Shown here in pieces: positions 1,564-48,370 of a DNA stretch of 64,000 nucleotides; position 1 is the first letter of the stretch, and every line of letters begins with the position of its first letter. The notes below the pieces were generated by a model that was given only the letters and a program-made list of their open reading frames with translations, was not told where the DNA came from and did not search any database. The stretch comes from Chloroflexota bacterium (lineage in GTDB: Bacteria > Chloroflexota > UBA6077 > FW602-bin22 > JAMCVK01), in NCBI GenBank assembly GCA_023475225.1, contig JAMCVK010000024.1:1-64000 (forward strand), in the 5' to 3' direction. The position numbers and the translations under genes were made by a program.

Positions 1564-1648
1564 ATCAGGGGAAATCCAGAGGGATGATACCTCTCTAGGC
1601 GAGGTTCGTGGGGCATTTTCTCTCCCGCTTAAGTCTTAAAGGCTGGGG

Positions 1649-1692
1649 TCTTTAAGCTGAGGGGTGCCGTTAAACACCTCTCAGCTTAAAGA
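1649..1692 (+). repeat. Long hairpin in argG-argH spacer
   Basis: An 18-base stem, TCTTTAAGCTGAGGGGTG against CACCTCTCAGCTTAAAGA, closes an 8-base loop (1667-1674). Only one pair is a G-U wobble. No T-tract follows on the + strand, so it is unlikely to be a simple intrinsic terminator. It could be an mRNA processing or stabilising hairpin that sets different argG and argH levels, or a short palindromic repeat. It ends about 30 bases before the argH start. Confidence 0.8.
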
Positions 1693-1723
1693 TCATTTGA
1701 ATCAGGTTTGAAAGGCGATCAAG

Positions 1724-3163: not shown

Positions 3164-3407
3164 CATTTAGACGATCGTCCCTTAGTATGTTCTCAGGCAG
3201 AGGTAAAGAGGTCTGCATAGGAAAGTCGTCGCGGCTCATCTTGTTGGCGAGGATGTTATTGTCACGTACGAGAGTGGCACCAATTCTAGCTTAGATAACA
3301 ATGGTTAATCCATGGCGTTACAAACGGATAGTCGCCATCTCCAGCGAGGGTGACTACGCTCCGGTGAGTGATGGATTAACCATTATTTATTTAGAGGAGA
3401 TGCGCCA
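3164..3407 (+). other. Structured leader region before glmU
   Basis: No gene was found in these 244 bases. The 3-prime half holds a large inverted repeat (3300-3384) listed separately. Upstream there is a small hairpin, GCAGA/TCTGC, near 3196-3215, and no clear promoter pair. A stretch at about 3270-3280 (AGAGTGGCACC) superficially resembles a T-box, but the specifier stem and the conserved ACCGCG are missing. Confidence 0.5.
3300..3384 (+). repeat. 14-bp perfect inverted repeat enclosing a folded domain, glmU leader
   Basis: AATGGTTAATCCAT (3300-3313) and ATGGATTAACCATT (3371-3384) are perfect inverted copies. The 57 bases between them can fold again: CGGA/TCCG with a bulge, then TAGTCGCC paired with GGTGACTA, then CTC/GAG around a CAGC loop. 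The structure ends just before the glmU ribosome site. It could be an unrecognised cis-regulatory RNA or a small palindromic element; the sequence does not match the glmS ribozyme or any riboswitch core I know. Confidence 0.7.
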
Positions 3408-33852: not shown

Positions 33853-33915
33853 TTGTTCCTTGTTTACTGACGGAATTCTGGGATATTTTACATAAAATGG
33901 ATGTATTTTGTCAAT

Positions 33916-41557: not shown

Positions 41558-41698
41558 TATGTTCTCCTTTGCGCCTGGTTCTGGCCGAATGGGCGTGCTC
41601 TCAAAGAGCAAGGAAACAGGGAACGCTGCCAGTCCCTGTGTGGAGACCTTCCCAGAAACGTTCCCTCTGGATCTCCTCTTGGTATCCTCCTATGGCGC

Positions 41699-41890
41699 TT
41701 ATGGCCGTTCCCGTTCGTGCATTATAGTTTTTATTCTGGCGATAATCTTCCGTAACTCAGGCAGGCGGGCATAATTCGCTTTCTGCCGAGTGGCCATCTG
41801 AAAGCGCAAATTGAAGAGCTCTTTATGGGCCTCATCCAATTTCATTCGTAGCTCAGCCTGGCTAAGTTCTCGAATCTCTTTTGCTTTCAT
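41699..41890 (-). CDS. rpmC: 50S ribosomal protein L29
   Basis: A 63-residue helical protein at the exit tunnel that binds trigger factor and SRP. MKAKEIRELSQAELRMKLDE, then FNLRFQMATRQKANYARLPELRK in segments, is typical. It starts a sub-unit of the cluster with its own near-consensus promoter in the 116-base gap after rplP. Confidence 0.97.
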   Translation of the reverse strand: MKAKEIRELSQAELRMKLDEAHKELFNLRFQMATRQKANYARLPELRKIIARIKTIMHERERP

Positions 41891-41909
41891 CGTTTACCCC
41901 TAGATTTTT

Positions 41910-41982
41910 GGCTTCCAAATTATAGCAAATGGACGTCGATATGTCATTTTTGAGCGGCGGACAGAGAACAATTTTGGAAGCC
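41910..41982 (-). promoter_or_regulatory. Promoter framed by inverted repeat, rplP-rpmC spacer
   Basis: On the minus strand ATGACA (41947-41942, 5/6) lies 17 bases before a perfect TATAAT (41924-41919) with upstream TGC, an extended -10. The whole promoter is bracketed by an inverted repeat: GGCTTCCAAATT (41910-41921) and AATTTTGGAAGCC (41970-41982), matching over 12 bases with one inserted base. The -10 overlaps one arm. This would let rpmC onwards be transcribed separately from rpsJ-rplP. Confidence 0.75.
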
Positions 41983-42006
41983 ATACTGGGAGAGTTTGAC
42001 ATCCTC

Positions 42007-42435
42007 TTAGTCGGTGGTGGCCTGAAGCGTTTCCTTGGTCACAAACATTGTCTTGATAGGCAGCTTATGCGCGGCTAAGCGCATGGCCTCTCTGGCGGCT
42101 TCCTCTTTTACACCACTGACTTCAAAAAGTATCCTGCCCGGTTTTACTACAGCGACCCAGTGATCGAGGGCGCCCTTACCGCTACCCATGCGAGTCTCGG
42201 CGGGTTTGGCTGTTACTGGTTTATCCGGGAAGATGCGGATCCAAACCTTGCCATCTCGTTTGATGTGGTGGGTAATGGCACGACGAGCGGCTTCGATTTG
42301 GCGACTATCTATCCAGCTCGCCTCCAGGGCCTGTAAACCAAAATCTCCGAAGGCAACGGTAGTACCACGGCTTGCCCTTCCCTTCATTCGACCTCGTTGG
42401 GCCTTACGGTATTTTATCCTTTTTGGTTGTAACAT
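42007..42435 (-). CDS. rplP: 50S ribosomal protein L16
   Basis: L16 organises the A-site region of 23S r[22 protein letters not shown] and [22 protein letters not shown] in segments are diagnostic, with [18 protein letters not shown] between. 142 residues. It follows rpsC by 84 bases. Confidence 0.98.
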
Positions 42436-47968: not shown

Positions 47969-48044
<76 letters not shown>

Positions 48045-48212
48045 GTCCCCTGTCGGCTACCGGCTAACTATATAGAAAAAAATATTCTCCCTCAGGGTTT
48101 ATTGTTTCCCACCCAATGCCAGCTTGACCTGATAGGGGAAGCCAGGCTCAAACTGACTAGCCATTTCAGGTAACAACTCTGTGCCTTTTGGCGATAGCCC
48201 TCCCCTATTGGG
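48045..48212. other. Spacer between the two tRNA-Thr genes
   Basis: These 168 bases hold no open reading frame of note and no clear promoter. A T-rich run at about 48070-48080 follows a small CCCTGAGGG palindrome in the transcription direction, which might act as a weak terminator or processing point. Confidence 0.4.
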
Positions 48213-48288
48213 TGGAGCCGACGATGGGACTCGAACCCGCAACCGGCGGTTTACAAAACCGCTGCTCTGCCAATTGAGCTACGTCGGC
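48213..48288 (-). tRNA. tRNA-Thr (TGT anticodon)
   Basis: Cloverleaf on the minus strand: acceptor GCCGACG/CGTCGGC, D arm AGCTCAATTGGCAGAGC, anticodon stem GCGGT/ACCGC with loop TTTGTAA giving TGT, and T arm with TTCGAGT. Discriminator T and encoded CCA (48215-48213). It reads ACA and, by wobble, other Thr codons. It is promoter-proximal, ahead of tRNA-Thr(GGT) and tuf. Confidence 0.96.
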
Positions 48289-48299
48289 CTAAGACGATA

Positions 48300-48370
48300 A
48301 TTATACGTAAAAAAGCGCCCAGGTCAAGGGCACCACCGTTATTATACGGCATAATATTTGCAAATGTCAA
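48300..48370 (-). promoter_or_regulatory. Tandem promoters of tRNA-Thr-tRNA-Thr-tuf
   Basis: P1: perfect TTGACA (48370-48365), 18 bases, perfect TATAAT (48346-48341). P2: TTGACC (48327-48322, 5/6), 16 bases, perfect TATAAT (48305-48300). Both read on the minus strand into the first tRNA-Thr. P1 begins next to the stop of the MFS gene. These are among the strongest promoter matches in the window. Confidence 0.85.

Follow-up and report, generated by a model that had tools for sequence, protein, structure and literature searches.

A probable near-consensus promoter overlapping an inverted repeat between rplP and rpmC in a Chloroflexota ribosomal protein cluster

The spc operon of Escherichia coli starts at rplN (PMC10931766). 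Internal promoters at the S10/spc boundary are housekeeping promoters placed within the S10-spc gene order, where they provide a second start for downstream genes; the putative promoter described here, in the gap between rplP and rpmC of a Chloroflexota bacterium, is of the same kind. It differs from the E. coli spc start in its place ahead of rpmC, two genes earlier in the order, and in its overlap with an inverted repeat. Our search of the literature on S10/spc internal promoters returned nothing direct for the phylum Chloroflexota. Another related arrangement is found in the leaders of phage T4 gene e and I-TevI, in which long transcripts carry an inhibitory hairpin and the sequence of its 5' strand also encodes the late promoter (PMC3014915). 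The likeness consists in the location of the promoter inside hairpin-coding sequence, so that the hairpin is available to read-through mRNA but not to mRNA initiated at the promoter. Unlike in T4 gene e, the Shine-Dalgarno sequence is here predicted to take part in a weak basal stem only, the promoter is of the sigma-70 type, and the host is a bacterium; the likeness of the Shine-Dalgarno step to that of gene e is weak. Invertible promoters of the fim-like and Bacteroides types are flanked by inverted repeats, and thus also resemble the present locus in having a promoter between the repeat arms. They differ from it in that the repeat described here is short, with a spacer of only 53 bp, the -10 element overlaps an arm, and the gene cluster is essential.

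The analysed sequence, a stretch of 64,000 nucleotides referred to below as the window, is part of a 2.74-Mb genome, most of whose closest named matches belong to Chloroflexota, and carries the ribosomal protein cluster on the minus strand (Table 1). The following gap of the cluster, between rpmC and rpsQ, is also long (135 bp, 41564-41698 on the minus strand) and present in a single copy; its predicted folding energy is -49.7 kcal/mol (z -2.1).

Table 1. Features of the rplP-rpmC region, in window coordinates
Feature	Position	Strand	Remarks
rplP (ribosomal protein L16)	42007-42435	-	PF00252, E 7.5e-57; gene upstream of the gap
rplP-rpmC gap, 116 bp	41891-42006	-	unusually long next to the gaps of relatives; one genomic copy
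Distal arm TTTGGAAGCCA	41973-41983	+	some 61-71 bp ahead of the predicted start
Sigma-70-type promoter	41919-41947	-	-35 ATGACA 41947-41942; 17-bp spacer; extended -10 TGcTATAAT, TATAAT 41924-41919
Promoter-proximal arm TGGCTTCCAAA	41909-41919	+	overlaps the -10 and the predicted start
Dyad 5+3+5, TTTGGAAGCCAAA	41907-41919	-	includes the promoter-proximal arm
Predicted transcription start	41912-41913	-	6-7 bases past the -10; placed from the -10 position
AGGGG, likely Shine-Dalgarno of rpmC	41899-41903	-	putative
rpmC (ribosomal protein L29)	41699-41890	-	PF00831, E 5e-21; first gene downstream of the promoter

A preliminary description of the sequence had placed an ATGACA-17-TATAAT promoter with an extended -10 between rplP and rpmC, and both its bases and its coordinates were confirmed. 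Sigma-70-type promoters were recognized by TTGACA and TATAAT hexamers near consensus at a spacing of 16-18 bp; the site conforms to this pattern, with 11 of the 12 consensus bases and the TG of the extended -10. Given the end of the TATAAT, transcription would begin about 22 nt before the ATG of rpmC, and the predicted leader would include the AGGGG, followed by the ATG eight bases on (counted from 41899). The window holds four promoters that match the consensus at 11 or more of the 12 positions, all of them on the minus strand; dinucleotide shuffles yield 0.52 on average. The remaining three sit at expected promoter places: two, at 48370 and 48327, are upstream of tRNA-Thr and tuf, and the third, at 33914, lies a short way ahead of a small ORF, the probable rpmJ. 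The two near-consensus promoters upstream of tuf precede a pair of tRNA-Thr genes in the region 47969-48370 (minus strand), and tuf and the S10 genes follow directly; given this order of promoters, tRNA genes and tuf/S10 genes, tRNAs may form the beginning of the ribosomal transcript.

Judging by its sequence and setting, the site in the rplP-rpmC gap is probably a genuine internal promoter, and the best reading of its role is that of a housekeeping promoter that would feed rpmC, rpsQ and the spc genes. The preliminary description had proposed that it decouples S10-type from spc-type genes. At the level of sequence, a promoter that would partly uncouple the downstream genes from the S10 genes is well supported. 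The boundary has to be corrected: the S10 operon of E. coli includes rpmC and rpsQ, so the promoter stands two genes before the S10/spc boundary of that species.

The comparison set comprised 109 other loci carrying both genes, drawn from the same order, class and phylum, from Firmicutes and from other groups; the order search covered 12 other genomes and the class search 28, and the closest relatives are members of the same order only, with L16 identity of 81% or less. In these relatives rplP and rpmC overlap or lie 0-83 bp apart, mostly overlapping or separated by a few bases, and the 116-bp gap is longer than in any of them. The DNA matches returned by the order and class searches fall in the coding ends. 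In the 150 bp before rpmC, none of the relatives has a promoter with 11 of 12 consensus bases, the best reaching 10 of 12. Their gaps of at least 30 bp contain no 8-bp inverted repeat, although a comparison that reaches the same order at its closest is too distant for judging conservation of the structure. The comparison of the gap with relatives, for which the preliminary description had called, yielded neither the promoter nor the arms in any of the 109 loci, and among the lineages compared the feature is confined to this one. Promoters of this quality do exist elsewhere in the related clusters: sites matching 11 or more of the 12 consensus bases number nine on the coding strand (the one in the window included) against one on the opposite strand. 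This bias indicates that internal promoters are general in the ribosomal cluster, and their presence there is ordinary. Three of the coding-strand sites coincide in position, some 1,765 bp past the start of rpmC: the sequence TTGACA-16-TATCAT is found there in L082, L094 and L103, loci of Selenomonadales-type or Acidaminococcaceae genomes, and probably represents an internal promoter conserved in the spc region.

The arms of the inverted repeat had been reported with exact coordinates and sequences; their perfect core is 11 bp long and gains AATT if a one-base bulge is allowed. The whole unit (41909-41983) spans 75 bp, and the reported overlap of the -10 with one arm amounts to 3 bases. The stem is followed by no T run on either strand, and hence does not have the form of an intrinsic terminator. 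Our preferred explanation, to which we assign a probability of about 0.4, combines the internal promoter with an RNA hairpin. A second transcript would start near 41912 and carry rpmC, rpsQ and the spc-type genes, while in read-through mRNA from an upstream S10-type promoter the arms would fold into a hairpin of 11 bp (plus 4 bp), the lower part of which would pair with the Shine-Dalgarno sequence of rpmC. The mRNA from the internal promoter would be devoid of the 5' arm, and its Shine-Dalgarno sequence would be freer. The hairpin, an option absent from the preliminary description, fits the locus at least as well as the options considered there. That it is functional is a tentative proposal, and that it gates the Shine-Dalgarno sequence of rpmC is doubtful.

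We infer hairpin formation from folding predictions for read-through mRNA beginning at 42066, 42006 or 41995, a situation that may arise if ribosomes cover rplP. The eight outer stem pairs have predicted probabilities of about 0.79-0.98 with these beginnings, and the hairpin disappears from the prediction when about 200 nt of ribosome-free rplP mRNA are included. In the predicted read-through mRNA, CCC at 41990-41988 partly pairs with the AGGGG. For read-through from 41995, ten 3' ends were compared: eight of them give the Shine-Dalgarno sequence a mean unpaired probability of 0.26-0.30, and the remaining two give 0.67-0.71; in the promoter transcript it is predicted at 0.31-0.90, mostly about 0.8. 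The low native unpaired value is reached in 1.5% of shuffles of the 5' arm. The prediction is nevertheless weak and varies with the context: opening the site would cost only about 1.5-1.8 kcal/mol in the read-through mRNA against 0.7-0.9 kcal/mol in the promoter transcript, a difference of about 1 kcal/mol. The Shine-Dalgarno sites of other genes in the cluster show comparable pairing (unpaired 0.05-0.81), and the folding z-score of the gap is only -1.0 to -1.5. Rfam gave no match at gathering score in the window, ribosomal protein leader families included, and one chance-level match near the gap. Two intergenic regions elsewhere in the window fold more strongly. The gap at 3164-3407 (plus strand), between argininosuccinate lyase and glmU-like genes, has a fold z of -4.9 against shuffles and no Rfam match; shortly ahead of the start of the glmU-like gene it contains a perfect inverted repeat of 14 bp (3300-3313/3371-3384), and it is a candidate structured leader RNA. 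The gap at 1564-1723 (plus strand), upstream of the argininosuccinate lyase gene, has a z of -4.1 and a 13-bp inverted repeat with a spacer of 18, and its only Rfam matches are implausible microRNAs.

Several other explanations of the locus have to be weighed against the combination of promoter and hairpin. The promoter may be real and the repeat functionless, a coincidence or a neutral relic in an AT-rich gap; we regard this as possible, if somewhat unlikely. The repeat is known from one genome, its arms are not conserved in relatives, the fold z-score of the gap is weak, and an average of 0.75 inverted repeats of at least 11 bp is expected from shuffles across 64 kb. Speaking against it, shuffling the 116-nt gap 20,000 times produced a repeat of at least 11 bp in just 5 cases, a figure that overstates the significance since the place had been picked in the preliminary description; the excess still holds over all gaps of the window, which together contain four inverted repeats of at least 11 bp against 0.07 expected. 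Pure chance is a statistically unlikely origin of the repeat. The reverse case, in which the promoter-like sequence is unused and rpmC is transcribed only from upstream, agrees with the absence of a comparable promoter at the same place in relatives, and is improbable in view of the near-complete consensus with an extended -10, the ideal spacing, the right distance to the ribosome-binding site and the company of comparable window sites that precede tRNA-Thr/tuf genes and the probable rpmJ.

The arms might also serve a dimeric repressor as two operators, of which the proximal would cover the -10 and start and the distal would lie near -66, possibly forming a loop; the preliminary description had suggested a repressor site pair or a looping element. 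In favour of this reading, both arms are dyad-like (TTTGGAAGCCAAA is perfect and TTTGGAAGCCATA has one change), and the proximal arm is placed to occlude RNA polymerase. The dyad centres, however, are 66 bp or about 6.3 helical turns apart, short of an ideal phase; no regulator gene was linked to the arms, and the genome has no other intergenic copy of TTTGGAAGCCAAA at 0-1 mismatch, so that an operator pair appears quite unlikely. The search for further copies of the arm motif also led us to reject an operator of a regulon: the one-mismatch copies of TTTGGAAGCCAAA elsewhere are all in coding frames, and the motif is absent from relatives. Matches with up to two mismatches number 63 genome-wide, slightly above the 44 of a reversed-pattern control, and a regulon-type operator is unsupported; a repressor with this one target is conceivable. 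Least probable is the proposal that the promoter was brought along by a small, MITE-like inserted element whose terminal repeat the arms would form. The gap exceeds those of relatives in length and the promoter lies between arms resembling terminal repeats, yet blastn with the gap found no second copy in the genome, returning chance-level short matches only, and no target duplication flanks the 75-bp unit. With both the multiple copies and the target-site duplication of such elements missing, a MITE or small inserted element was rejected, and the scar of an insertion envisaged in the preliminary description is unlikely. Phage records have no match, and a plasmid search retrieved unrelated ribosomal genes only.

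The strongest version of the hairpin explanation would follow the design of T4 gene e, with the hairpin silencing rpmC on read-through mRNA and the short mRNA of the embedded promoter being freely translated. This is conceivable, and we consider it very unlikely; if true, the synthesis of L29 and the downstream proteins would hang on the internal promoter and not on transcription of the S10 genes. Taken as an internal promoter alone, the locus would be ordinary. If promoter and hairpin do act together, one lineage would have divided an S10-spc cluster that is usually continuous, and would have done so at a different point from E. coli, with a hairpin-nested promoter as the divider.
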